The notes under the pieces are model-generated. The model was not told the DNA's origin and ran no database searches. It was given only the letters and a program-made list of their open reading frames with translations. From a virus: a stretch of 20,590 bases of DNA. The stretch covers positions 1-20,590 of the IMG/VR virus record IMGVR_UViG_3300022916_000101. One strand, written 5' to 3'. Made by a program: the position numbers and the translations under genes. Positions 1,796 to 17,449 of the stretch are shown here, piece by piece. Each line of letters begins with the position of its first letter. Position 1 is the first letter of the stretch.

Positions 1796-2347
1796 ATGCC
1801 AGCCTCTATTTCTCTCCACATCCGCCTAGCTGACATCGAGCCAGAAATCTGGCGACAGGTCACAGTCCCTGCCAACTACACCCTGGCAGGACTACACTTT
1901 GTCATCCAGGCTGCGATGGGTTGGGAAGATGAACACCTCCATCTCTTTGTCATCGATGGCGAGCGCTATGGCGTGCCTGACGATGCCTCTGGAGGACGTC
2001 CTATTGCAGAGGAAGCCAATGTGAGGCTCTCCCACGTTCTCGTTGAAGGTCATACGTTTTTATATGCTTACGATTTCGGTGACGACTGGCGGCACGAGAT
2101 CGACGTCGTCAAAGTTAGTGATGCAATCGCGCCTTTATCTTGCCTTGATGGCAAACGGGCCTGCCCACCCGAAGATAGTGGTGGACCTTATGCCTACGCT
2201 GATTTGGTAGAGGCTGTGCAAAATCCGAAATCCGCCGACCCAGACTATCTGGACTGGATCGGCGATTTTGATCCCGAAGAATTTGACCTTGAGCTTGCAA
2301 ATAAACGCTTAAAGGCGCTGAGCAAAAACAACCCCACCACGCATTGA
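1796..2347 (+). CDS. pRiA4b ORF-3-like protein
   Basis: This 183-aa protein matches the plasmid pRiA4b ORF-3 family (PF07929) as I know it. It has an N-terminal SLHIRLADIEPEIWR segment, the signature YDFGDDWRH at about residues 92-100, CPPEDSGG at about 123-130 and DFDPEEFD at about 157-164. Members are common on plasmids, integrative elements and near transposons. Their biochemical role is not established, and I assign none. It is the only plus-strand gene inside the minus-strand head module. Its stop lies two bases from the end of the major capsid gene, so the two converge tightly. The start at 1796 (MPASISLHIR) fits the family. An upstream in-frame ATG at 1736 would add 20 residues, and neither start has a strong ribosome-binding site. 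Confidence 0.88.
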   Translation: MPASISLHIRLADIEPEIWRQVTVPANYTLAGLHFVIQAAMGWEDEHLHLFVIDGERYGVPDDASGGRPIAEEANVRLSHVLVEGHTFLYAYDFGDDWRHEIDVVKVSDAIAPLSCLDGKRACPPEDSGGPYAYADLVEAVQNPKSADPDYLDWIGDFDPEEFDLELANKRLKALSKNNPTTH

Positions 2348-2349
2348 GG

Positions 2350-3366
2350 TCAGGTGCGCTTGGCTTTCATCAGCACACGCGGACGGGTGCAAATCGGCAG
2401 CGGATTGGATTGGGCGTGAAGTGCCACCCAACGGCCAAACTGTGTGTCCGGGGCCTGTTTGGCGTAGCGCGGCAAACCGATCGTGTTGACGGTTTCTACA
2501 AAATCCGCCGGTGCATTGTATTGGCGAAACAGCCCCGGCACGCCGACCGGGAAGAAGTGGGCTTTGTTGGAATCGGTAAAATCAACCGAACCCACGCGGC
2601 CCCGGTATTCTTCAAACACAATACCCGCATATTCGAACGAACCGCGTGCCTGACCTTCGCGAAGGAACAAACCGTCGAGATATCGGTCATAGGCGGCAGA
2701 GACTTCCGGGTGTGTGACCAGGTCATCAAAGAACGCGGAACCGCAGATGGCATGGATGTGGCTATAGGGCGTCGCCCCCAGTTCATCCTCGATCTTGCGC
2801 TTAACGTCATGGCACTTCTTTTTGATCGCGCCGGAGACGGGCGAGGCGTTATTGAGATCGAAGTCGATCTCCGTCTGCTGAGAAACACCGAACTCCTGAA
2901 ACAGATCATAGAGGACGGTAGATCCGTCCGCGTCCAGAATTTGTCCCATGATGGCTCCAATGCGCAAATGCTCCAGGGTCGCATCTAGTTTGCGGGCCAT
3001 TTCTTCCAGGCGATCATTCATCACCTGTTGGACACCTTCCAATTGGCTGTCCGATCCGAATGCCCGAAGGTTTTGTACTTCGTCAGCCAGAATGGTGTCT
3101 TCCAACGCAATATGGGGAACGGTCAAAGACCGGGCCTTGCGCTTGTTGTGTGCATTCTGCACGGCAGGAGCGCCACGCGCGGTGGTTTCCACCAAGGTAA
3201 GCGAGCCTTCCCGTTCTTCCACCAAGACCGAAGTCGTCGCCACGCCTTGTTCACGGAACAGGCTCAGCTGACCAATGCGGCCTGGTAGAAAAGGAATTTT
3301 ATTGATGGAGTCCGTCAGAGACACCAACGAGAAAGCATTGGAATTAAAAATATCGAGTGCGGGCAT
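2350..3366 (-). CDS. Major capsid protein, lambda gpE family
   Basis: This 338-aa protein is close to the 341 aa of lambda gpE. Features consistent with the phage major capsid protein E family (PF03864) are the N-terminal DIFNSNAFSLVSLTDSINKIPFLP segment, the central RAFGSDSQLEGVQQVMNDRLEEMARKLDATLEH helix region, and the C-terminal TNSNPL-type end (LHAQSNPLPICTRPRVLMKA). It would form the icosahedral shell together with the decoration protein encoded just upstream. The start is supported by AGGAGAGG a few bases before the ATG. The gene follows the protease and gpD-like genes in lambda order. Its 3' end abuts the convergent pRiA4b-like gene. Confidence 0.93.
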   Translation of the reverse strand: MPALDIFNSNAFSLVSLTDSINKIPFLPGRIGQLSLFREQGVATTSVLVEEREGSLTLVETTARGAPAVQNAHNKRKARSLTVPHIALEDTILADEVQNLRAFGSDSQLEGVQQVMNDRLEEMARKLDATLEHLRIGAIMGQILDADGSTVLYDLFQEFGVSQQTEIDFDLNNASPVSGAIKKKCHDVKRKIEDELGATPYSHIHAICGSAFFDDLVTHPEVSAAYDRYLDGLFLREGQARGSFEYAGIVFEEYRGRVGSVDFTDSNKAHFFPVGVPGLFRQYNAPADFVETVNTIGLPRYAKQAPDTQFGRWVALHAQSNPLPICTRPRVLMKAKRT

Positions 3367-3375
3367 GGGCCTCTC

Positions 3376-3741
3376 CTATCGGACAATAATTGTGGCAACG
3401 GACAACTGATCGATGGCCGTTTGTTTCTGGGGATCGGTGATGCCGGCAGGCCAGACCACTTCGCCGCCATGAACTTCGGCAAAACGCGTGATGACAACCC
3501 CTGGGGCATCACCACCGGAGGCATCGACCGCATCAAACAAAACGGCTACGGCCACTTCGGCGCCAGAGGTGGCGACCGGATCAATCTCGCGGTACTTGCC
3601 GGATGTGGTGACACGGCCAAGAACCGTTCCCGGCTCCAAGGTGCGGCCATTCAGGATTGTTACGGTCTCGCGACTGATGGATCCGTTTCCTTCAGAAACG
3701 ATGAATTCGCCAGTGTGCTGGCCTTCGGTCATGACAGGCAT
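3376..3741 (-). CDS. Head decoration protein, lambda gpD family
   Basis: This 121-aa protein is slightly longer than lambda gpD (110 aa). The N-terminal pattern TEGQHTGEFIVSEGNGSISRE, followed by NGRTLEPGTVLGRVT, is typical of the family (PF02924). These proteins trimerise on the expanded capsid and hold the shell against the pressure of packaged DNA. The start at 3741 is supported by AAGGAG seven bases upstream; a second ATG at 3732 is less well placed. It lies between the protease/scaffold gene and the major capsid gene, as in lambda (C-Nu3-D-E). Confidence 0.92.
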   Translation of the reverse strand: MPVMTEGQHTGEFIVSEGNGSISRETVTILNGRTLEPGTVLGRVTTSGKYREIDPVATSGAEVAVAVLFDAVDASGGDAPGVVITRFAEVHGGEVVWPAGITDPQKQTAIDQLSVATIIVR

Positions 3742-6478: not shown

Positions 6479-8425
6479 CTATCTCGTCATGTAGCCGCTG
6501 GAGATCACCCGTCGCTCTACAGGTTTGGTGCGTTTGACACGCCCGGCTTGAGGAGCCGTCGCCAATTCCGTGTTCAAGGTTTCCGGTGCCAGGTGCAGCT
6601 GCTCTTCAAGATCACGCCAGCGGGCCTCAGGCCAGCGATCAATGCCGACGATCCAAGCTGCAGCGCGGGCATAAACCCGGCAATCCAAAGCTTCATTCCG
6701 TTCTCGCAGCTTTTGCCATTCGAGGCGGGTGAACCCACGCTTGTTTTTGACTGTAATAAGCTGCTCGGCAACCAACTGCTTGAGCCATTCGGCATCCACC
6801 CATTTTGGCAAATGAACGGTGCCTGGTAGATAGTCGGCACCTTCGGCACGTTCTTCGTCCGTTGGGCGTTCAGCCCTCAGAAACCGGTAGGTCTCAGACT
6901 TGAAGGTGGAGACTGCAACCGTCCAGAGGCGCGCGCCACGACGGAGTTTCTTGCCGCCGTCGGTCGCATCTACAAGGGTTGGCCCGGACACCGGGCTGGA
7001 CCGATTGAACCCCTCGGCACCCTTGATGGGGGCGACTTGTCCAAATCCGGCCTTACGCGCCCACGCATAAACCGCCGGTGCCTCGTAACCGGTATCGATG
7101 GCCATCTTGGCAATACGCAAATGCGCCCCACCTTCGTGGGCCCAGGTTTGATCCAACAGGCCAGCCAGCTCCAACCAGGCTTCCGGTCTTTGCGGACCGC
7201 CATCGATAACGATGTGATCAACGAGCCAGCTTTCCAGTCCACGGCCCCAGGCCCAGACATCAACCTCCAACCGATCCTTTTGAACGTCGACGCCAGCCGT
7301 CAGAAACAAACCTTTCGAAGAAACAATGCCAGCGGGACCAGATTCTCTCTGATCATAAAGCCGCTGCCAATCGGGCGCTTCTCCAGTTTCGACCCAGGTC
7401 TCGCCGAGGTCGGTGTTCTTCACGGATTTAACCGCTGCGTCGTTGCCTTGGGCCATTTCCCAGGCCGTTGCGATCTCAGCCCAGCTTCGCCAACCGATGG
7501 GGCTATAAAGGCTGGAGATGTGAAACCCTGCAGTTTTCTCATTGCCTTTGTCGGACTTGACCGTTGAGCGCCATTCTCCTTGCTCCAACATTCGCGTCTT
7601 ATGATGCTCATGAATAGTCCCATCGCAGTCTTCGCAGAGATAATGGGCCGTTCCCGGTTGCCCTTTTTCCCAACGCAACCGCTCAAACTCCAGCCATTGG
7701 AAATGGCCGCAATGGGGGCAAGGCACGAAGTATCGCCGTTGGTCTGAAGCTTCGAACTCCCGCTCGATCCGCGACACGCCTTTGACAGTTGGTGTCGAAA
7801 CAATAAAGACCTTCCGCCGCGCAAAAGTTCGTGTGCGGGCCTCAGCCAGCGCGACGGGATCTCCTTCACCATCGATGTCTCCTGGGTATCCGTCGACCTC
7901 ATCGAGAAACAGATAGCGCACCGGCATGGAGCGTAGCCCCACCGCCGAGTTGGCACCCGTCATCGCCAACAAGCCGCCCTGGAACGATTTGGTCAGGACC
8001 GTGTTGCCGGAATCTCTGGCGCGCGCTGGTTTAACAAGGCTTGAGAGCACCTCACTTTCTTCAATAAGCGGATCAATGCGTTGTCGCGAGTTCCGTTTGG
8101 CCATCTCCACGGTGGGCAGCACTGCCAACATGGGGCCGGGTGCATGGTGGATGACATAGCCAATCCAGTTATTTCCGCATTCAGTCGCGCCAATCTGCGC
8201 GCCCTTCATAAACACCACCCGCTCGTATGGCGACGAAGGGGACAGACAATCCATAATCTCGCGCAGATAGGGCGTGCGCGATGTTCGCCATGGCCCAGGT
8301 TCTGAAGCACCTTTGCCGGATAACCTTCGATGTTGATCCGCCCATTCCGACACCTTCAGCAATGGGTCTGGCCGCAGTCCGCGAGCAAATGCTTTGTTGT
8401 ATATTTTGTTGGCGTCAGGAAGCAT
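6479..8425 (-). CDS. Terminase large subunit, GpA family
   Basis: This 648-aa protein is near the 641 aa of lambda gpA (PF05876). It is the packaging ATPase and cos-type nuclease. The ATPase domain has a Walker A variant KGAQIGAT at 74-81 and Walker B YLFLDEVD at 171-178. A zinc-binding pair, CPHCG (236, 239) and CEDC (264, 267), follows. The C-terminal nuclease has the family signature LTAGVDVQKDRLEVDVWAWG at about 375-394, with D380 a likely metal ligand. The start is preceded by GAGGAAC and overlaps the end of the small subunit gene by 11 bases. GpA-type terminases are associated with cohesive-end packaging, so the genome is probably packaged from cos sites. Confidence 0.97.
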   Translation of the reverse strand: MLPDANKIYNKAFARGLRPDPLLKVSEWADQHRRLSGKGASEPGPWRTSRTPYLREIMDCLSPSSPYERVVFMKGAQIGATECGNNWIGYVIHHAPGPMLAVLPTVEMAKRNSRQRIDPLIEESEVLSSLVKPARARDSGNTVLTKSFQGGLLAMTGANSAVGLRSMPVRYLFLDEVDGYPGDIDGEGDPVALAEARTRTFARRKVFIVSTPTVKGVSRIEREFEASDQRRYFVPCPHCGHFQWLEFERLRWEKGQPGTAHYLCEDCDGTIHEHHKTRMLEQGEWRSTVKSDKGNEKTAGFHISSLYSPIGWRSWAEIATAWEMAQGNDAAVKSVKNTDLGETWVETGEAPDWQRLYDQRESGPAGIVSSKGLFLTAGVDVQKDRLEVDVWAWGRGLESWLVDHIVIDGGPQRPEAWLELAGLLDQTWAHEGGAHLRIAKMAIDTGYEAPAVYAWARKAGFGQVAPIKGAEGFNRSSPVSGPTLVDATDGGKKLRRGARLWTVAVSTFKSETYRFLRAERPTDEERAEGADYLPGTVHLPKWVDAEWLKQLVAEQLITVKNKRGFTRLEWQKLRERNEALDCRVYARAAAWIVGIDRWPEARWRDLEEQLHLAPETLNTELATAPQAGRVKRTKPVERRVISSGYMTR

Positions 8426-8948
8426 CCGCTAGTTCCTCGAGCGCGGCTCGGATCTCCGTGTAAAGCAGCGTGTGCACGCGGGTCGCATCGCTTTCAGCTG
8501 CCAGAACCGCTGACAATCTCTCCGGGATATTCAGCAGGCCATCGCGAACAACCCGTGCCTGGTTGAAAGCGGCAACTTTAACTTCATCGGCGTCCACATA
8601 TTTGCCAGCTTCAACTCGGGCCTTAATCTCAAGGAGCTTGGCTTTTTCCACCTCGCTCTTAATCCGTGTCTTAAGCAACAAGGTCGGAAGGTCACCGCCG
8701 ACCGGCGATGAGACAGGAAAGTCAATTGCCTGAGCCGTGGACTTGATAATAGGTGCGGTCTGCGGTTCAGCTCTCCTCGCTGGCCGGGCGGGTTCGCGAA
8801 CGGCTGCGAGGGCAGCATCGGCTTGCGCCGGATCGACTTTGCGATCCTGCAATGTGATCACGCCCTTGGCCACCATTTGGCCCACGTATTGGCGCGAGAC
8901 CCCACGCTGGCGCGCGTATTCGGCCTGACTGACAAGCATTTGCGTCAT
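8415..8948 (-). CDS. Terminase small subunit (Nu1-like)
   Basis: This 177-aa protein has the size and position of lambda Nu1 (181 aa). The N-terminus (VSQAEYARQRGVSRQYVGQMVAKGVI, about residues 6-31) reads as a helix-turn-helix that would recognise the cos region. The middle is an alanine and proline-rich linker. The C-terminal half (LLLKTRIKSEVEKAKLLEIKARVEAGKYVDADEV...) is a helical oligomerisation and large-subunit binding region. The start at 8948 is chosen over a second ATG at 8939. It is the first gene of the head module, and its promoter must lie in or beyond 8949-9044, the divergent gap shared with arfA. A cos site would be expected near here but cannot be recognised by eye. Confidence 0.8.
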   Translation of the reverse strand: MTQMLVSQAEYARQRGVSRQYVGQMVAKGVITLQDRKVDPAQADAALAAVREPARPARRAEPQTAPIIKSTAQAIDFPVSSPVGGDLPTLLLKTRIKSEVEKAKLLEIKARVEAGKYVDADEVKVAAFNQARVVRDGLLNIPERLSAVLAAESDATRVHTLLYTEIRAALEELADAS

Positions 8949-8986: not shown

Positions 8987-9016
8987 TCGACAGGAGCGTC
9001 GACTGTCGCCTATAGT
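8987..9016 (+). promoter_or_regulatory. Probable sigma70 promoter for arfA
   Basis: TCGACA at 8987-8992 (5 of 6 to TTGACA) and TATAGT at 9011-9016 (5 of 6 to TATAAT) are separated by 18 bases and end 28 bases before the arfA start codon. Two copies of the palindrome GTCGAC (8986-8991 and 8998-9003) overlap the -35 and spacer, a possible operator. The elements are seen in the sequence; activity is inferred. Confidence 0.6.
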
Positions 9017-9044
9017 CCGCGCCCATCAAAACGAGGAAGGAACC

Positions 9045-9305
9045 ATGAAACGAAAACCGTTATCTAAACCCCGCAGCCTTGCGGCCCGCGCATTGGAATC
9101 TCCGTTGTTCCGAATGCAGAAAGTCAAAACCCTTAAAGGTAAAGGATCATACAAACGTCGCCCGAAACACCGAGGCGGCGTTTCTGTTTTTGTCAGAGCG
9201 ACAATGCGGTTTCCAAATCTTCGTGCTCAAACGCGCTTTCCATCCGTTGGATTTCAGCTTCTTTCGCGCCGCGACGCCGTGCGACCTCACGCCAGCCTCT
9301 TGTAA
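9045..9305 (+). CDS. arfA: Alternative ribosome-rescue factor ArfA
   Basis: This 86-codon frame starts at 9045 behind a strong GAGGAAGGA site. Residues 14-42 match the ArfA core as I know it from E. coli ([28 protein letters not shown]): here ARALESPLFRMQKVKTLKGKGSYKRRPKH, with the PLFR and KGKGSY motifs. ArfA enters ribosomes stalled on non-stop mRNA and recruits release factor 2, as a backup to tmRNA. A terminator hairpin (9153-9183) falls within codons 37-46 and its T-run ends near codon 49. Most transcripts should therefore lack the stop codon at 9305 and yield a non-stop product of about 48 residues, which tmRNA would degrade when active. Codons after 49 are unlike ArfA and overlap hipA antisense. 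The gene is on the plus strand between two minus-strand phage modules, so it behaves as a moron. Confidence 0.87.
   Translation: MKRKPLSKPRSLAARALESPLFRMQKVKTLKGKGSYKRRPKHRGGVSVFVRATMRFPNLRAQTRFPSVGFQLLSRRDAVRPHASLL
9153..9191 (+). terminator. Intrinsic terminator inside the arfA reading frame
   Basis: A 10-bp stem (9153-9162 with 9174-9183, AAACGTCGCC/GGCGGCGTTT, one G-U pair) with an 11-base loop is followed by CTGTTTTTG. It lies before the arfA stop codon and just after the hipA stop (9193). It would produce a non-stop arfA mRNA, as described for proteobacterial arfA genes, where either an RNase III hairpin or a terminator truncates the message. On the hipA side the stem also forms, but the T-run is poor (TTTG). 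Confidence 0.85.
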
Positions 9306-10443
9306 CATCCGCAACATCGCGGATCAGATTATCCGCGTCCTTTGCCTTAAGCGCATATTCCTCCGCCACGGATCGAAGCAGTTCAATCGAGCAAGTTCCG
9401 TCGTCAAAATCAATATTGGTGGCCAGTATCCGAGGCTTCACATCCTGCGGGGTCGGGTTGATGTCGTAAGCCGGAGACAAGGTCCACCCACGTTGTCCGA
9501 GCCACAAAAATCCATGGTTCCGCAGGTGGTCGTCGGTGTTTGAGACGAGAATGGAAAACACCACACGTTTGTAGAGCTCTGTTCGGTCAGCGATTGCGCT
9601 CGCACCATGTTGGGTCAGAGCATCTACGATTTCCAAATAACTGCCTCGATCACCATCTCTGTGCTCGGTCATCGACATGGCCGACAAGAACGGAATTCGC
9701 TGCTGGCCATCGCGGTCGAACCGGCGTGACAAGAATATCGGGCGCCCATCGTTTTCAACAATATCATGGCGAGCCGTTCGAATGCCCGCTGCATCGGCTA
9801 AATCCAATGCAATAGCCTCCCAGCGCTCCAGGGAATAATCATCCGTCTCCTTCGGAAATTTTGCGATGGACAAACAACCATGTTGATCAATGACAGATGC
9901 CTTGGGACGCGCGCCACCGAGTGATGAGCCCGGCGCAAAAATCAGTAACAGATCCTCGTCGCTTTCTTCACCGCGCAGAATGCGCTCAGATGCGCCGAGC
10001 AACTTTCCCAAAGCCACCGTCCCCGGGACACCAACTTCTTGCGGCGCCTGGAATACATCATCCCCTTGCCAGCGAAACCGCAATGCGCCCAGTCTGGTTT
10101 CGTCAGAAACACCAAGCAGAAAATCGGCTTCATGAAGGGTGCGAATCGCTCTGCCTTCACGATCTGCTGAGCGGCGCTCCCTCCTGCGCATCAAGGTGCG
10201 GCCCCAAGTATCCGGAGCCGAATCTCCAAGCGTGCCAAACATTTCTTGGTTGGCTGGTGGCCGGAACGTGCCAGGACCAACCGGTAATGAAGGATCGATC
10301 GAAAAACTATCGGCGTCTTTGATCCATTGCTGATCATATTCGAATGTAACCGACTGCCTGGCTCGACTAGCATGTCGACGCATCAGTCCAATGCGGCGGC
10401 AATTTCCTTGCCAATCCAAGAATATCTCCACGTCCGACATCAT
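9193..10443 (-). CDS. hipA: HipA-family Ser/Thr kinase toxin
   Basis: This 416-aa protein is close to the 440 aa of E. coli HipA. The glycine-rich ATP-binding/activation segment is SSLGGARPKASV at 173-184. The kinase catalytic loop is SNTDDHLRN at 301-309, with D304 as the likely catalytic Asp and N309 as metal ligand. LSPAYDINP at 322-330 supplies the DFG-like Asp, D327. E. coli HipA phosphorylates glutamyl-tRNA synthetase and so blocks translation; homologues target other tRNA synthetases, and the target here is unknown. The ATG at 10443 overlaps the hipB stop as ATGA, giving coupled toxin-antitoxin translation. All kinase residues appear intact. The gene sits between the early phage genes and the head module and ends tail-to-tail with arfA. 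Confidence 0.93.
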   Translation of the reverse strand: MMSDVEIFLDWQGNCRRIGLMRRHASRARQSVTFEYDQQWIKDADSFSIDPSLPVGPGTFRPPANQEMFGTLGDSAPDTWGRTLMRRRERRSADREGRAIRTLHEADFLLGVSDETRLGALRFRWQGDDVFQAPQEVGVPGTVALGKLLGASERILRGEESDEDLLLIFAPGSSLGGARPKASVIDQHGCLSIAKFPKETDDYSLERWEAIALDLADAAGIRTARHDIVENDGRPIFLSRRFDRDGQQRIPFLSAMSMTEHRDGDRGSYLEIVDALTQHGASAIADRTELYKRVVFSILVSNTDDHLRNHGFLWLGQRGWTLSPAYDINPTPQDVKPRILATNIDFDDGTCSIELLRSVAEEYALKAKDADNLIRDVADVTRGWREVARRRGAKEAEIQRMESAFEHEDLETALSL

Positions 10444-10769
10444 GACTGACCTTTCCGGCTGCGCGTTATGTAAGCGCGTTGCGGCAGATCTTCTTTCGCG
10501 ATGTTTTGCCCAACATCATCATGCGTCGCATCAGCGACGTCAGCGAGACGCTCCAACAGGTTTAATGCCTGCAACACAGCTGCGATGATGCCGATGCTGA
10601 CCGACGGGTCACCTTTTTCAATACGCGAGATCGTTGGCCTGGACGTCGCAGCGCGTTCCGCCACAATTTCCATGGGCAGTTTTCTGCGTAAACGCGCGTC
10701 ACGAATGTCTTCCCCCAGCTTTTTGAGGGCGCGCCTGGCTGACGGTGGCGGACGATGCGGCGTAGGCAT
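10440..10769 (-). CDS. hipB: HipB-like antitoxin / transcriptional repressor
   Basis: This 109-aa protein has an XRE-type helix-turn-helix at about residues 15-65: LGEDIRDARLRRKLPMEIVAERAATSRPTISRIEKGDPSVSIG, including the SRPTISRIEKG recognition helix. HipB proteins bind and inhibit HipA and repress their own operon. The C-terminus (EDLPQRAYITRSRKGQS) is basic and flexible, unlike the folded core. The start has GGAAG eight bases upstream. It is the first gene of the two-gene hipBA unit, with a probable operator directly upstream (10785-10808). Confidence 0.88.
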   Translation of the reverse strand: MPTPHRPPPSARRALKKLGEDIRDARLRRKLPMEIVAERAATSRPTISRIEKGDPSVSIGIIAAVLQALNLLERLADVADATHDDVGQNIAKEDLPQRAYITRSRKGQS

Positions 10770-10859: not shown

Positions 10860-11087
10860 TCAAAATCCTGATGCCTGGACGCGAATTGCCTCAAACAACC
10901 GCCTGACTGCATAGGATCGGGCGATACTCACCAGGGTGAATAGGCCGCCAATAGCCAGGTTGTCAGACAGAGAGACTTCCAGCCCAAACAGCGGAAAAAC
11001 AGCGATCTGTGTTGCCACCGCGACGCCATAGCCGATCGCTACATTGGTTAAGGACTCCAGCAGGGACATACGTCTTGATTGCCTCAT
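10860..11087 (-). CDS. Small membrane protein, DUF7220-like
   Basis: This 75-aa protein begins MRQSRRMSLLESLTNVAIGYG. It has two hydrophobic segments at about residues 14-35 (NVAIGYGVAVATQIAVFPLFGL) and 43-56 (NLAIGGLFTLVSIA) and a basic C-terminal region, fitting a two-pass inner-membrane protein. The N-terminal MSLLES.TNVAIGYG.A...Q..VFP.FG pattern is shared by small phage proteins I recall as DUF7220. Its function is not known. Its ATG overlaps the stop of the methyltransferase gene (ATGA), and an AAAGGATGG site precedes it. It is the last gene of the early operon. Confidence 0.75.
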   Translation of the reverse strand: MRQSRRMSLLESLTNVAIGYGVAVATQIAVFPLFGLEVSLSDNLAIGGLFTLVSIARSYAVRRLFEAIRVQASGF

Positions 11088-12409
11088 GCGGCCATCCTTT
11101 CATTTTTAATCTCATCGAATGTGCGTCCGTCCTTATCAAGGGCCGCCGATTTGCCGGTGGCATTCTGCCAGCGCTCAACAGCCACATCCACATAGACGGG
11201 GCTAATCTCCAGCGCATAAACCCGTCTTCCGACGGATTCTCCTGCCATGATCTGGGAGCCAGACCCTGAAAATGGTTCATAGCATAGCCCGCCAGGTTCC
11301 GCATGCTGGCGCATGGGAATGGCAAAACAATCGAGCGGTTTAGGCGTCGGATGGTCGGGACGTTCCTCGCCGGAAAGTCCATGGATATCCCAGACAGAGG
11401 AGAGGAACTGAGCCCCATCCGCTTTCGGCGGCATATTGCCTTTGATCCAGCCCATCAGGCAGGGCTCATGCTTCCAAAGATACCGGGACCGGGTGAGGAC
11501 ACCCTTTTCCTTATTCCAGATAATCTGTTGGTGCTGAAACGCGCCCATCTCCGTCCAAACCTCTTCCAGCATGGCCTGGCGGCGTGACGCATGCCAGCAG
11601 TACCAAGCAGCGTTCGGCTCGATGGCTTCGGCAATAGCAGCCTTGATAAATCCGCGATAAAGATCCGGGCCTTGGGATGAATCATCCCAGGTCACGCCGT
11701 AGCTGGCGGACCAATCTTTGTTGCCATCAGTCCCGCCGGTATCACCTTTGGCGACTTTGGCTTTGCGGGCACTGTTCTGCGGATGATTGGTGCCATCATA
11801 ATCAACCAGGTATGGCGGATCAGTAGCAAACAAGATGGCCCGTTCGCCATTCATCAAGCGCTTCACATCATCCGCGCTGGTACTGTCGCCACAGAGTAGC
11901 CGATGAGTTCCAAGCACCCAGAGATCACCCGCCTTGGAAACGGGGTTGGCCGGTGCTTCTGGAATTTCGTCATCACCCGTAAACCCGTCGGGGACTTGAT
12001 TGCCTGTATTTTGCAGCAACTGGTCGATCTCAGATAGATCAAACCCGGTCAGGTCCAGGTCAAAATCCTGGGCCTTGAGATCAGCGATCTCGAGACGCAA
12101 TAGCTCCTCATCCCATCCTGCATTTTCCGCTATTTTGTTGTCGGCAATGATGAGTGCGCGGCGCTGCGTCTCGCTAAGACCATCAATCCGAATGACGGGC
12201 ACCTCGTTGAGGCCAAGTTTGCGCGCCGCCATCAAACGCCCGTGACCGGCGATAATGACATCATCATCACCAACCAGGATCGGATTGACGAACCCGAACT
12301 CAGCGATGGATCCTGCGATCTGTGCGACTTGGGTTTCCGCATGTGTGCGGGCGTTGCGCGCATAGGGGATCAACCGATCCACCGGCATGGTTTCGATTTT
12401 AAGGTTCAT
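11084..12409 (-). CDS. DNA methyltransferase with ParB-like N-terminal domain
   Basis: This 441-aa protein has two parts. Residues 1 to about 100 form a ParB/Srx-type nuclease-like domain: VDRLIPYARNARTHAETQVAQIAGSIAEFGFVNPILV and IAGHGRLMAARKLGL. Residues from about 160 form an amino-methyltransferase. DPPY (197-200, catalytic motif IV) comes before the SAM-binding FSGSG (380-384), with HPTPKPLD at about 353-360; this order is that of beta-class N6-adenine or N4-cytosine enzymes. Such orphan enzymes are common in phages, where they may protect phage DNA or mark replication. No restriction partner is nearby. The start at 12409 (MNLKIETMPVDRL) fits the family but has no strong ribosome-binding site; a TTG at 12469 would add 20 residues. 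Confidence 0.92.
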   Translation of the reverse strand: MNLKIETMPVDRLIPYARNARTHAETQVAQIAGSIAEFGFVNPILVGDDDVIIAGHGRLMAARKLGLNEVPVIRIDGLSETQRRALIIADNKIAENAGWDEELLRLEIADLKAQDFDLDLTGFDLSEIDQLLQNTGNQVPDGFTGDDEIPEAPANPVSKAGDLWVLGTHRLLCGDSTSADDVKRLMNGERAILFATDPPYLVDYDGTNHPQNSARKAKVAKGDTGGTDGNKDWSASYGVTWDDSSQGPDLYRGFIKAAIAEAIEPNAAWYCWHASRRQAMLEEVWTEMGAFQHQQIIWNKEKGVLTRSRYLWKHEPCLMGWIKGNMPPKADGAQFLSSVWDIHGLSGEERPDHPTPKPLDCFAIPMRQHAEPGGLCYEPFSGSGSQIMAGESVGRRVYALEISPVYVDVAVERWQNATGKSAALDKDGRTFDEIKNERMAA

Positions 12410-12726
12410 TTTGTCAATCAGATGAAATTGGGTGAACAATTGGATGTGCTTGACAGATTGACCCTGCAAAGCCGCAGGAACTCTGGGCTGCCGTTCGGTC
12501 TGTCAAGCTGTCGTCAAGTTAGTTTTTGGCTCTGTCGCTAGCGAAATCCCGCGCTGACGCCTCCCGCATAGGATATCGGCCAGGAAGGAACCAACTTATC
12601 AAAGGTTTAGGGGCGGCTGCAAAAGAGCTGCGGACGTTGCCGCGCGCGCCTCTCGCGAGCATGGTCTGAAACTACCCCAAATCGAGCGCATCTGTCTCGC
12701 CTTGCGGTGTCTCACGAGAAAGCGTC
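12410..12726. other. Gap with a long inverted repeat; otherwise no gene seen
   Basis: This 317-bp stretch before the methyltransferase has no convincing gene. Its main feature is a 10-bp perfect inverted repeat, GCTTGACAGA (12448-12457) and TCTGTCAAGC (12499-12508). Four more pairs, two of them G-T, extend it inward. It encloses a small hairpin CCTGC/GCAGG (12463-12467 with 12474-12478). On the minus strand TTGACG and TTGACA lie here as possible -35 elements, without a clear -10. A promoter or regulated leader for the methyltransferase and DUF7220 genes is likely. A 100-codon minus-strand frame at 12599-12901 overlaps DUF6362 in another frame and is not supported. Confidence 0.5.
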
Positions 12727-13369: not shown

Positions 13370-13623
13370 CAGCTGACCTCCTTGAGCACAGCGGCGTAAC
13401 CCGCAATGTCGATCATGCTATCGAGATGTTGGGGAGCGTGGGCCAGCCGTGCCAGCTTTAGATCAATCAGGCACAACGCCACCTGCGACGGCGTGATGGG
13501 CTGGCCCAGCGTAATCGACCAGCGTTTGGCGATAGCTGTCATGGATGCCATCGGATCGCCGTAAGTCTCCCTGCGATTGCCGACAACGGCAGCAGCTTGT
13601 TTGAGCATCATTTCGCCGTTCAT
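13369..13623 (-). CDS. DUF6378-family phage protein
   Basis: This 84-aa protein carries the pattern MMLKQAAAVVGNRRETYGDPMASMTAIAKRWSI followed by PSQVALCLIDLKLARLAHAPQHLDSMIDIAGYAAV. That is the recognisable signature of the DUF6378 family of small phage proteins. The helical D...D/H..D.I.D..GY layout resembles the all-alpha NTP pyrophosphohydrolase-like fold. A nucleotide-related role is possible, but no reaction is established. It overlaps the resolvase gene stop by four bases and the next gene by one base, so it belongs to the same operon. Confidence 0.8.
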   Translation of the reverse strand: MNGEMMLKQAAAVVGNRRETYGDPMASMTAIAKRWSITLGQPITPSQVALCLIDLKLARLAHAPQHLDSMIDIAGYAAVLKEVS

Positions 13624-14141
13624 TGGCCTGTCCTTCCGTCACGATGGGCCATGGCCCAGTCCAGGATCGCAAGAGCATCCGCCTCGTTGTCATCCGCCGG
13701 ATCAAACCCGAGCTTCCGAACAGCGGCGATTACCGCATCCTTGTTCGCGTTCCCTTTGCCGGTTGCGTGGCGTTTGATGGTGCCGACCGGCACAGCCTCG
13801 TAAGGGATTTCGTGGTGTTCACACCAGGCGGTGACGTGAGCCAGAAAACCGCCATAGGCGTGGGCAGCATCGACACCGGCATGATGCCGGACTTCCTCGA
13901 AGAAAACGACGTCCAGACCACCAGCCATCTGTTTGATTTCTGTGAGCCATTGCTTGAACCGCAGGAAGCGCATACCGCCGCCTTGCCAGCGATCGTTCTT
14001 GAACTCGGTTATGCCACTGGTGACGGTCCGGTCGGAAAGGCGGACCGCCCAACCGGTCTTGGTGCCGAGATCCAGTGAAAGCATGACGAGTGGCCCCTGG
14101 GCCTGATCGGCGTGAATTGTTTTCGAAGTGGTTTGGGTCAT
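13620..14141 (-). CDS. RuvC-like Holliday junction resolvase
   Basis: This 173-aa protein has the RNase H-like fold of RuvC-type crossover junction endonucleases. LSLDLGTKTGWA at 21-32 holds the first catalytic Asp, D24. VVFFEEVRHHAGVDAAHAYGGFLA at about 78-101 holds the Glu (E82 or E83). The C-terminal DDNEADALAILDWA at 150-163 ends with D155. Phages use such enzymes to cut branched DNA before packaging or during recombination. The start at 14141 is chosen for the GGAGAC site upstream; the longer frame from 14207 runs back into the repeat region. It is the first gene after the repeat array. Confidence 0.9.
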   Translation of the reverse strand: MTQTTSKTIHADQAQGPLVMLSLDLGTKTGWAVRLSDRTVTSGITEFKNDRWQGGGMRFLRFKQWLTEIKQMAGGLDVVFFEEVRHHAGVDAAHAYGGFLAHVTAWCEHHEIPYEAVPVGTIKRHATGKGNANKDAVIAAVRKLGFDPADDNEADALAILDWAMAHRDGRTGQ

Positions 14142-14181
14142 ATCGAGTCTCCATGGAAATACGTTTGCTGGTGGATTGGTT

Positions 14182-14202
14182 TTGGCAACGGGTTGGTAAT
14201 GG
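14182..14202 (+). repeat. Outlying copies of the TTGGCAACGG repeat
   Basis: TTGGCAACGG (14182-14191) is followed one base later by the variant TTGGTAATGG (14193-14202). These two copies lie about 100 bases from the main array, on the resolvase side of the hairpins. Confidence 0.75.
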
Positions 14203-14218
14203 CCCATCGGTCTCTGGT

Positions 14219-14266
14219 GGGAGGAGTGTGTGTTACCAAAAACACTCCTCCCCCTTTAGGGGGAGG
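14219..14266. repeat. Two overlapping GC-rich palindromes
   Basis: The first palindrome pairs 14219-14229 with 14242-14252 (GGGAGGAGTGT/ACACTCCTCCC, 11 bp, 12-base loop). The second pairs 14247-14254 with 14259-14266 (CCTCCCCC/GGGGGAGG, 8 bp, TTTA loop). They share 14247-14252, so only one can form at a time. The second has the form of short dispersed palindromes common between alphaproteobacterial genes, and this may be such a host repeat. Confidence 0.7.
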
Positions 14267-14499: not shown

Positions 14500-16692
14500 T
14501 CAATCTTCTCCCTCGTCAGCACCGAGAATGAACTCACCCACACCCCGTGAAAATGGCCCGCACGGGACATCCAGCCACTTGTCTTCCTTCGAGCCAGAGG
14601 CCATGCCTTTGACCAGAACGCCGTCGTTGAGGAGCTCCTGAGCCATGTCCTGGATCCGCTTGCGACCCATCTCACGAAACTCCATCGGCAGGCGATGGCG
14701 CTGCTGATAGAGTCCCGTTCCGCCGGTGTGGGTGTAGGGGTGTCCGCTTTCAGCCGCGCGGGCAATCGCTGAGACCAGCGCATCCATCAAATCCTGTTCT
14801 GGCCGGCGGCGCGCTTTCAGTGACGCCGTGACGTCCATGAGAAGACCCGTCGGCGCGCGTAAAAAAGTGCGAATGGTTCGGTCGGCTGGGCCATTGGCCT
14901 TGACCACAGCGCCTTGATAGACAGCGTTTCGAACGAACGGCTCATCCATTGTTTTGAACACGGATGCCTGATGCTCGTCAGGTGACGGCCAGAGCGCATA
15001 GACCATGCGCACCCCATCAACAATTGCACTGGTGCCACGCACCGCGTCGCGCGCCTGTTCGACGGAAGCGATGGGTCGGTTGCCCTGTGGCTTGCGCATG
15101 TGGTGGGCAACGATGATGGCAGCGCCCGTCTCTGTGGCGAGGCTTGCCAACAAGCCGGTCGCAAAACTGCCCGCAGCCGGGTCGGACGTGACATCGGCAT
15201 GGATGAACGATGCCAATGGATCGAACACCACCAGTTTGAGATTACGAAGCCGCAGGATTTGATCTCGCAGTAATTTGAACTGGGGTGTGATCTCAGGGCC
15301 GTCCTTACCGGACACCACCAGAGGGATTGGCCCTCCCGCATTGGGCAAAGGAACGACAATCAAACGCTCAGGGACCTTGAGACGAAGCTCGTTCGGATCC
15401 AGTCGCTGCAGTCGCCTGTGAACCTCGCCCAGGTCGTCCTCGGCGGTGAAAATAACCGCTGTGCCAAACTCCCTCACTGGGCCGCCGAAGGCCATGGGCT
15501 CTGGACTGACAGACACAGAGCGCGGCTCGCCGGTTGCCACTGACAACGCTAAGTCCAGGGTCATCATGCCTTTTCCGGTATCACCCATGGCGGCGAGGAT
15601 TGAGACGACGCCCATGGGGAACGCACCCTCCACCAGAAAATGCTGCTCCGGGGCTTCGCCGGAATACCGGGTCGCCTGCCAATCCAGGAGGTTGAGATTT
15701 GTCTTTTCAGCACGAATGGACTGGCGCTCAGTAGTTGCGATGAACTCGGCCACATCTACGCCCTCAGCAACCGCGTCGGCGGCATCCCATTTGTCGGGCT
15801 TGTCATCAGGAGGGAGCAAAATGGACGCCGCCAGAGCGCCCGTGGCCAAAACAGCCTTCGATGCAGCCATGGCGTATTGCCAACCGGGACCATCCTTGTC
15901 CGGCCAGATCAGCACGCGCTTTCCTTTGAGCGGAGACCAGTCGGTTTTATCGACAGGCGCCTTGGCCCCGTTCATGGCGGTGGTGGCGCAGAGACCTTGC
16001 GCGATCAGGGCCTCAGCGCATTTTTCGCCTTCTACCAAAATGACGTCATCTGAACTCTTGATACCTGGTCGATTAAACAGAGGACGCGGATCAGGGGCTT
16101 TGGTCTTTCGGCTGAGAACATCCCAAGGGCGGAACTGTTTTCCTGTAGGAGGATCATAACGATAGACGTTGGCGATCAGCTTGCCGTCTTCGTCATGGTA
16201 GTCCCACTTGGCGGTCACCGGACCCAGCTCATCCATGGGTGGAGATTTGGTTTTGGCGATGCGGTCATCATGGAACGTTCGGGTATAGCCATCGAGCCAA
16301 CCGCGAATGTCTTCCATGATGATGGGGAAATCGGTGCGCGTGTCGTGACCACTGACCGCAGCCCACAGACTGATAATGTCACCACCTTCACCAGTGGCAA
16401 AGTCATGCCACATTCCGGCTTTTTGTCCGTTGAGTTCAACGGAAAGGCTATCGCCGCGATTTCCACGAACATCGCCCGCGACAAACTTGCCGCCTTGGTA
16501 GACGCCGCCCGGAAGCAGATAAGACAGCACACCTCGAATGTTAAATAGCATCCGGGTCTTGATATCCTCCGTGGTCTCGGAGAAATCCCGCGTTCGGTAA
16601 TCGTCCGGGTTTTGAGGTTCGGCGTCATTGAAGTCACGCCAACGATCAAAGTTGATAACGTTGTCGTCCCCATCTGTTAAGATTTCAGACAT
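14500..16692 (-). CDS. Phage primase-helicase (Toprim plus RecA-like ATPase)
   Basis: This 730-aa multidomain replication protein has these regions in order. About 73-112 is a primase-type N-terminal region (RGDSLSVELNGQKAGMWHDFATGEGGD) without zinc cysteines. About 215-300 is a Toprim-like domain with ILVEGEKCAEAL (acid at E221) and VLIWPDKDGPG (263-269). From about 355 is a RecA/RepA-like ATPase with Walker A GDTGKG at 370-375, Walker B VVFDPLA at 488-494 and IIVAHHMRK. It probably primes and unwinds phage DNA. The start at 16692 (MSEILTDGDD) has GGGGA upstream and overlaps the nuclease gene by eight bases. The N-terminal WRDFNDAEPQ (18-27) recurs at the N-terminus of the protein at 19555-20187. 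The 3' end abuts the repeat array. Confidence 0.88.
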   Translation of the reverse strand: MSEILTDGDDNVINFDRWRDFNDAEPQNPDDYRTRDFSETTEDIKTRMLFNIRGVLSYLLPGGVYQGGKFVAGDVRGNRGDSLSVELNGQKAGMWHDFATGEGGDIISLWAAVSGHDTRTDFPIIMEDIRGWLDGYTRTFHDDRIAKTKSPPMDELGPVTAKWDYHDEDGKLIANVYRYDPPTGKQFRPWDVLSRKTKAPDPRPLFNRPGIKSSDDVILVEGEKCAEALIAQGLCATTAMNGAKAPVDKTDWSPLKGKRVLIWPDKDGPGWQYAMAASKAVLATGALAASILLPPDDKPDKWDAADAVAEGVDVAEFIATTERQSIRAEKTNLNLLDWQATRYSGEAPEQHFLVEGAFPMGVVSILAAMGDTGKGMMTLDLALSVATGEPRSVSVSPEPMAFGGPVREFGTAVIFTAEDDLGEVHRRLQRLDPNELRLKVPERLIVVPLPNAGGPIPLVVSGKDGPEITPQFKLLRDQILRLRNLKLVVFDPLASFIHADVTSDPAAGSFATGLLASLATETGAAIIVAHHMRKPQGNRPIASVEQARDAVRGTSAIVDGVRMVYALWPSPDEHQASVFKTMDEPFVRNAVYQGAVVKANGPADRTIRTFLRAPTGLLMDVTASLKARRRPEQDLMDALVSAIARAAESGHPYTHTGGTGLYQQRHRLPMEFREMGRKRIQDMAQELLNDGVLVKGMASGSKEDKWLDVPCGPFSRGVGEFILGADEGED

Positions 16693-17449
16693 GCTCAGTC
16701 CCCCAGCAGCGGTCTGACCAAGAGCAAAACTTGCATTCAAAGAAATCCGCCGACTGCGCTATGCGAGGCAGAAGTTCGCCCGCATCGGTTGCCTGAAGAA
16801 TGCGCACGGCCTTGTCGCTGGACGTTTGCGCCAACGCGCCATCGAAGGGCACAAGCTCGTGATAGAGTTCTGCCGTGTCTTTGTTTATGGCTGTGAACAG
16901 CGCGGGGTTCGATGAGATACCAGGAACAGATGCTTCCATGTAGGCCTGATAGGTGGCGATCTGGGCGGCGTACACGGGTTTAGAAATTGCCAACCCGCGT
17001 TTGACCGTGTCTTTCCAGGATCGGGCGTTCATGGATTTGCATTCCCAAAGCGCTGGAAAGCCTGGTAGCAGCGGGCCGCCATTGATGATGCCATCCACAT
17101 GGCCGCGAATGCGTCCGCCCGCGACTGAAAACCCGAACTGCTCACCACCCGAGCGGTTGCCCTTGGTGGTATAGAGATCGAAGCCCGCTTTGCGCAGCCA
17201 GTCTATGGCCAGGTCTTCAAAAAGATGACCAGCAGCGAAGATCCGCAAGGTCTGACCATTAAAGTCAGCGCCATCATCTTTTGGGGCATTTGCGTATTCA
17301 AACTGAAGCGCTCTTTCGCAACCCACACCCAGACGCGAACCACCAAGGTAGTCGCGTGACGGGTGTGATAAATTTTCTGCAACCAAGGCTTCGTCGATTA
17401 GAGCGTTAAGCTGTTCGGCGACGCTGGCTGAATGATTAAAATCCAACAT
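16685..17449 (-). CDS. Cas4-like PD-(D/E)XK nuclease with predicted Fe-S cluster
   Basis: This 254-aa protein shows nuclease motifs GHLFEDL (H75, E78), GHVDG (D119), WECKS (E136, K138) and a downstream QIATYQAYM (Q163). Four cysteines are placed as in Cas4/AddB-type enzymes: C44 in the N-terminal GCERAL and C239, C242, C248 in the C-terminal FFECKFCSWSDRCW. The likely product is a DNA exonuclease stabilised by a 4Fe-4S cluster, working in phage recombination or end processing. No other CRISPR genes are present, so an adaptation role is not suggested. It overlaps both neighbours (one base with DUF6511, eight with the primase), within a tight operon. The cluster and the nuclease polarity are inferred. 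Confidence 0.85.
   Translation of the reverse strand: MLDFNHSASVAEQLNALIDEALVAENLSHPSRDYLGGSRLGVGCERALQFEYANAPKDDGADFNGQTLRIFAAGHLFEDLAIDWLRKAGFDLYTTKGNRSGGEQFGFSVAGGRIRGHVDGIINGGPLLPGFPALWECKSMNARSWKDTVKRGLAISKPVYAAQIATYQAYMEASVPGISSNPALFTAINKDTAELYHELVPFDGALAQTSSDKAVRILQATDAGELLPRIAQSADFFECKFCSWSDRCWGTEHV

Follow-up and report, generated by a model that had tools for sequence, protein, structure and literature searches.

A phage-borne arfA gene with a conserved hairpin, probably a terminator, inside its reading frame

Introduction

Non-stop arfA genes under the control of tmRNA are established in E. coli and other bacteria (PMC8012679, PMC10107115), and an earlier preliminary description of the DNA analysed here had already identified an in-frame terminator as a known design of proteobacterial arfA, in agreement with those reports. 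In E. coli, more than 40 ArfA residues are needed for activity (40 are too few), and 46-48 are ordered on the ribosome (PMC8012679). E. coli arfA (YhdL), like other proteobacterial non-stop arfA genes, combines the ArfA core with an in-frame hairpin before the stop and a short active product; truncation in E. coli is mostly by RNase III cleavage, with a longer hairpin situated further downstream, at codons ~53-65. Bacillus BrfA, a different protein from another bacterial group, is likewise a tmRNA-controlled backup factor with a terminator inside its frame (PMC8012679).

ArfA has also been reported in phages. Citromicrobium phage vB_CbaS-RXM, an alphaproteobacterial phage of another type than the one described below, encodes ArfA as g10, which is annotated as a 60-residue frame (PMC8953757); g10 has a stable in-frame hairpin and a short T-run, on which the accessible part of that report does not remark. 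Pelagibacter phage HTVC027P encodes ArfA as gp30, which is expressed both early and late in infection (PMC12753301); like the gene described below, gp30 adjoins the terminase small-subunit gene, but it ends at an ordinary stop codon and lacks a stable in-frame hairpin. The accessible parts of these two reports (PMC8953757, PMC12753301) make no mention of a non-stop design, and we found no description of a non-stop phage arfA in a literature search that covered few subscription journals. The preliminary description had suggested that a phage might carry a backup rescue factor; the viral location stands, whereas the idea itself had already been published for these two phages.

Results and discussion

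The window that we analysed, a stretch of 20,590 nt, is one entire IMG/VR virus record, from a virus of alphaproteobacteria. The ORF starting at position 9045 encodes ArfA: its peptide, which begins MKRKPLSKPRSLAARALESPLFRMQKVKTLKGKGSYKRRPKHRGGVSVF, scores 36.7 bits against Pfam PF03889 in a profile search (E = 2.9e-9; curated cut-off 25.5 bits), and matches solved E. coli ArfA chains on ribosomes in the PDB (E = 2e-4). The ArfA core reads ALESPLFR...LKGKGSYKRRPKH, and the PLFR...KGKGSY segment with the basic tail that runs into the mRNA channel (SPLFRMQKVKTLKGKGSYKRRPKHR) aligns with the PDB chains. The preliminary description had noted PLFR and KGKGSY behind a ribosome-binding site, and had proposed an ArfA HMM search as a check; the motifs and GAGGAAGGA are present in the sequence, and the Pfam score answers that check. 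NCBIfam profiles gave no match to the peptide, and PHROGs matched it only with an unnamed family (E = 1e-4); as the family is only ~45 residues long, inference from it may be weak. The promoter-like site upstream (Table 1) agrees with 10 of 12 consensus positions and is identical in a contig that is 98% identical to the record and also carries arfA (L001). Two such sites were found in the arfA region, against 0.5 expected.

Table 1. Features of the arfA locus in the 20,590-nt window
Feature	Position	Strand	Basis
Phage terminase small subunit, left neighbour	8415..8948	-	phrog_57, E = 5e-34
Promoter-like site TCGACA-18-TATAGT, 5' of arfA	8987..9016	+	consensus match; putative function
Ribosome-binding site GAGGAAGGA	9033..9041	+	sequence; DNA similarity to L003 lineage starts at 9031
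arfA coding part, 48 codons, without stop codon	9045..9188	+	Pfam PF03889; codon comparison with L003
Hairpin within arfA frame, 10-bp stem, loop of 11	9153..9183	+	folding, re-coding and shuffle tests; L001 and L003 differences keep pairs
T-run completing putative intrinsic terminator	9187..9191	+	sequence; similarity to L003 ends at 9189
Read-through extension of frame to TAA, antisense to hipA 3' end, probably non-functional	9189..9305	+	L003 tail dissimilar
hipA-like toxin gene, convergent right neighbour	9193..10443	-	PF07804 HipA_C, E = 1e-45
hipB-like antitoxin gene	10440..10769	-	HTH_3/HTH_31; couple_hipB below its cut-off
Genes for DUF7220 and ParB_N/DNA methylase, bounding the cargo slot on its far side	10860..12469	-	profile matches, slot comparison

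Phage genes lie on both sides of arfA, with a primase/helicase beyond the ParB_N/methylase gene. The preliminary description had placed arfA between prophage modules; its viral location is upheld but prophage status is not, since the record has no host flank and no recognised integrase. An ordinary host locus is ruled out by the viral record, by the phage genes on both sides and by a second lineage that carries arfA in the same slot. We did not find arfA in 11 host genomes with a related terminase, Thalassospira prophages included. Integration into ssrA would account for a need for ArfA, but no attachment site was seen within the short contigs that have this arfA. No tRNA, tmRNA or Rfam family was found in the record, its DNA matched no named phage, and the short ArfA peptide gave no match when searched against genome contigs.

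Among relatives, gene content varies between the terminase small subunit and the methylase: this slot holds HipBA without arfA (L014-L016), DUF3489-like genes and others, or, in L002-L004, which form a second lineage of this phage type, phd-parE/relE-arfA. As the preliminary description had suggested checking, arfA recurs at the matching place: it occupies the identical slot, between the terminase small subunit and ParB_N/methylase, in the record, L001 and L002-L004, and in L002-L004 its neighbour past the hairpin is DUF7220, not hipA. Among ~34 viral contigs related by their terminase, many being fragments, only these two lineages carry arfA, which is therefore dispensable. Since the slot is variable, and arfA within it is reversed relative to its neighbours and has its own putative terminator and a promoter-like site recognised by consensus only, arfA is optional, moron-like cargo. 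We consider it probable that the mRNA of this phage accessory gene for ArfA ends at the in-frame hairpin, and that the gene constitutes a self-regulated rescue backup.

The immediate neighbours of arfA raise the question of a link to toxins. In L003, a Phd-type antitoxin gene (1411-1692; PF02604), a ParE/RelE-type toxin gene (1689-1997; PF05016) and arfA (from 2013) lie on one strand, with about 15 bases between the toxin stop and the arfA start, which places arfA third in a toxin-antitoxin operon (L003:1411-2150). This order in L002-L004, together with the HipBA genes adjoining arfA in the record, would be consistent with a role for ArfA in softening or tuning the ribosome stalling caused by the adjoining toxin. 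However, L014-L016 have HipBA but no arfA and L002-L004 have arfA but no HipBA, indicating that the neighbours assort freely, and the PF05016 profile of the L003 toxin could fit a gyrase-targeting type as well as an mRNA cutter. We regard a toxin-linked role as unlikely, and it would refine rather than replace the rescue-backup explanation.

Comparison with the second lineage bears on whether arfA is under selection and on where the gene ends. The ArfA proteins are ~80% identical over 49 residues (81% by tblastn). At the DNA level, the record matches L003 over 9031-9189 at 81% identity, and the match then stops; it extends from the ribosome-binding site to the T-run, with no stop codon before the hairpin in either sequence, and the frames that continue past the hairpin (38 residues in the record, 113 in L003) have nothing in common. 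Since the similarity ends at the T-run and the tails differ, the unit ends at the terminator rather than at a stop codon; judged from this alignment, the conserved unit is the ribosome-binding site, 47-48 codons, the hairpin and the T-run. Codon differences from L003 comprise 14 synonymous and 8 amino-acid-changing codons, a purifying pattern. A recently acquired host gene that is useless to the phage and drifting could account for the patchy occurrence of arfA and for its clear homologues on chromosomes within the same bacterial order, but we judge this improbable given the purifying pattern between lineages, the slot shared by two lineages, and the independent arfA genes in other phages.

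Beyond the two published cases, a tblastn search with an alphaproteobacterial ArfA consensus added further probable arfA genes, in phages of Caulobacter, Brevundimonas, Sinorhizobium, Erythrobacter, Roseobacter and Pseudomonas, with weak E-values for several of them. Most of the phage arfA genes found in this way end at stop codons. SmphiM12_363 of Sinorhizobium phage phiM12, an unrelated 195-kb phage, is a short ArfA-like frame (L165:501-644) in which a perfect in-frame hairpin and TTTTTT precede the stop codon; the match is weak (tblastn E = 0.3) and the KGKGSY motif is lacking, but the frame appears to be a second non-stop arfA in a phage. Unannotated ArfA-like frames are present in Caulobacter phage Cr30 (L163:438-602), Pseudomonas phage pf16 (L167:438-590) and Erythrobacter phage L02 (L168:432-617). 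In Roseobacter phage CRP-212, an ArfA-like frame above the Pfam cut-off (L009:1971-2108) lies out of frame within annotated gp38; it may be a gene that overlaps gp38, or the frame may have arisen by chance. Two further candidates (L005, L170) have the KGKGSY motif but not the full ArfA core, and were left out of the counts.

The hairpin of the record's arfA, with stem arms AAACGTCGCC / GGCGGCGTTT, covers codons 37-47 and, unlike that of E. coli, is accompanied by a T-run and sits in a viral genome. Both elements precede every in-frame stop codon, with the T-run following codon ~48. This is the top terminator-like site on the plus strand of the entire window; a stock terminator scan, which allows loops of no more than 8, failed to detect it, the loop here being 11. 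Since the encoded KRRPKHRGG stretch by itself favours hairpins, we compared the hairpin with synonymous re-codings. An equally stable terminator arose in 82 of 3,000 re-codings (2.7%; lenient rule) and in 14 of 1,000 (1.4%) in a second test, while 4 of 200 (2%) reached the stability of the hairpin by a folding-energy measure. Dinucleotide shuffling gave z = -2.8. With these values, the case for a terminator from the single sequence is moderate. Of the differences from L003, three fall in the hairpin, and these leave pairing intact, strengthen it (G-U to G-C) or are located in the loop; the differences in L001 keep all pairs. The predicted terminator becomes convincing once its conservation in two phage lineages and in chromosomal homologues is considered, and the layout proposed in the preliminary description, an intrinsic terminator at 9153-9191 ahead of the stop codon, is real. 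The T-run is short, so termination may be leaky, and it is weaker still in L003 (CTATTTCAGC); by analogy with E. coli, RNase III cleavage could contribute to the arfA mRNA end.

ArfA scored above the Pfam cut-off in 8 of 385 alphaproteobacterial genomes, with arfA in ~2% of the species sampled. In the order that contains the closest terminase relatives, a wider ArfA profile matched 8 of 297 genomes, some of them weakly. A published nucleotide-HMM survey had found arfA in 0 of 2,376 Alphaproteobacteria (PMC11633108), a figure that our profile search suggests is an undercount. Several of the arfA genes from the 385 genomes sit beside plainly chromosomal genes, named from the sequence by eye, among them a TRAP transporter (L147), an apparent prfC (L149) and ppiC/cobyrinate-type genes (L145). 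In L149, arfA (4950) is slightly more than 1 kb downstream of the apparent prfC (release factor 3; 2085-3680), with one gene between them; a link to translation termination is possible. Stable in-frame hairpins precede the stop in six chromosomal genes (L136, L138, L139, L140, L153, L154), mostly with T-runs, and are located at or after the KGKGSY...KH segment; an ordinary stop ends arfA in L150-L152, L133, L137 and L155-L157. E. coli arfA behaved as a positive control in the hairpin test. Related hairpins in chromosomal alphaproteobacterial genes indicate that the design was inherited rather than invented by phage.

A rival reading would make the hairpin an accident of the codons for KRRPKHRGG and the 86-residue read-through protein the real product. 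The frame is indeed open to 9305, and the re-coding rates show that such a terminator can arise by chance. Nevertheless, the L003 tail is unrelated, belonging to a 160-residue frame, and the tails lie antisense to different genes; 38 of 117 bases of the read-through tail are alike between the two, which amounts to no similarity, and the 38 residues beyond the hairpin are not conserved. In addition, homologues repeat the hairpin with different stems. We consider an ordinary-stop arfA very unlikely; the stop at 9303-9305 is, on this comparison, merely the read-through end of the frame. It is more improbable still that the hairpin is the terminator of the convergent hipA gene, or a two-way terminator, that falls in arfA by overlap: the hipA stop codon at 9193 does adjoin it, 1 base past the arfA T-run, but the hairpin lacks a following T-run on the minus strand and is kept both in L002-L004, beside DUF7220, and in chromosomal arfA genes.

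On the rescue-backup explanation, truncation, tmRNA control and RF2 recruitment are inferred by analogy with E. coli. Transcription would most likely end at the hairpin inside the arfA frame, generating an mRNA without a stop codon. Ribosomes would stall at its end, and tmRNA-SmpB would normally free them and tag the ~48-residue ArfA for destruction. If trans-translation were missing or overloaded, untagged ArfA would be released, bind stalled ribosomes and recruit RF2. At ~48 residues, the predicted product exceeds the minimum for activity in E. coli and would retain the portion that is ordered on the ribosome. During infection or lysogeny, ArfA could then be a backup against ribosome stalling that regulates itself, plausibly triggered by host toxins or defence systems that cleave mRNA or by an overloaded tmRNA in infected cells; any benefit to the phage is speculative. 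More tentatively, and with the odds against it, arfA genes of alphaproteobacterial phages may be gated by host tmRNA, with one lineage having wired arfA into a toxin-antitoxin operon as a phage-borne unit that responds to stalled ribosomes and may act against defence or toxins that cleave mRNA.

Phage ArfA and non-stop arfA in bacteria were both known. What seems to be new is their combination, a phage location with the non-stop design, which phiM12 also shows; new too are the relative with arfA as the third gene of a Phd/ParE-type operon and the ~2% occurrence in sampled alphaproteobacterial species, against none in the published survey (PMC11633108). Thus, arfA occurs in alphaproteobacteria and their phages despite its reported absence from 2,376 genomes. 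A mobile element would thereby carry a self-sensing rescue gene, switched on only when host trans-translation fails, and non-stop phage arfA offers a clean, natural way to test if phage growth is limited by stalled ribosomes.

Elsewhere in the window, a strong minus-strand terminator (14247-14266; stem of -16.4 kcal/mol, AGTGTTTTTG tail) sits between the primase/helicase gene (14500-16740) and a RuvC-like gene (13620-14207).
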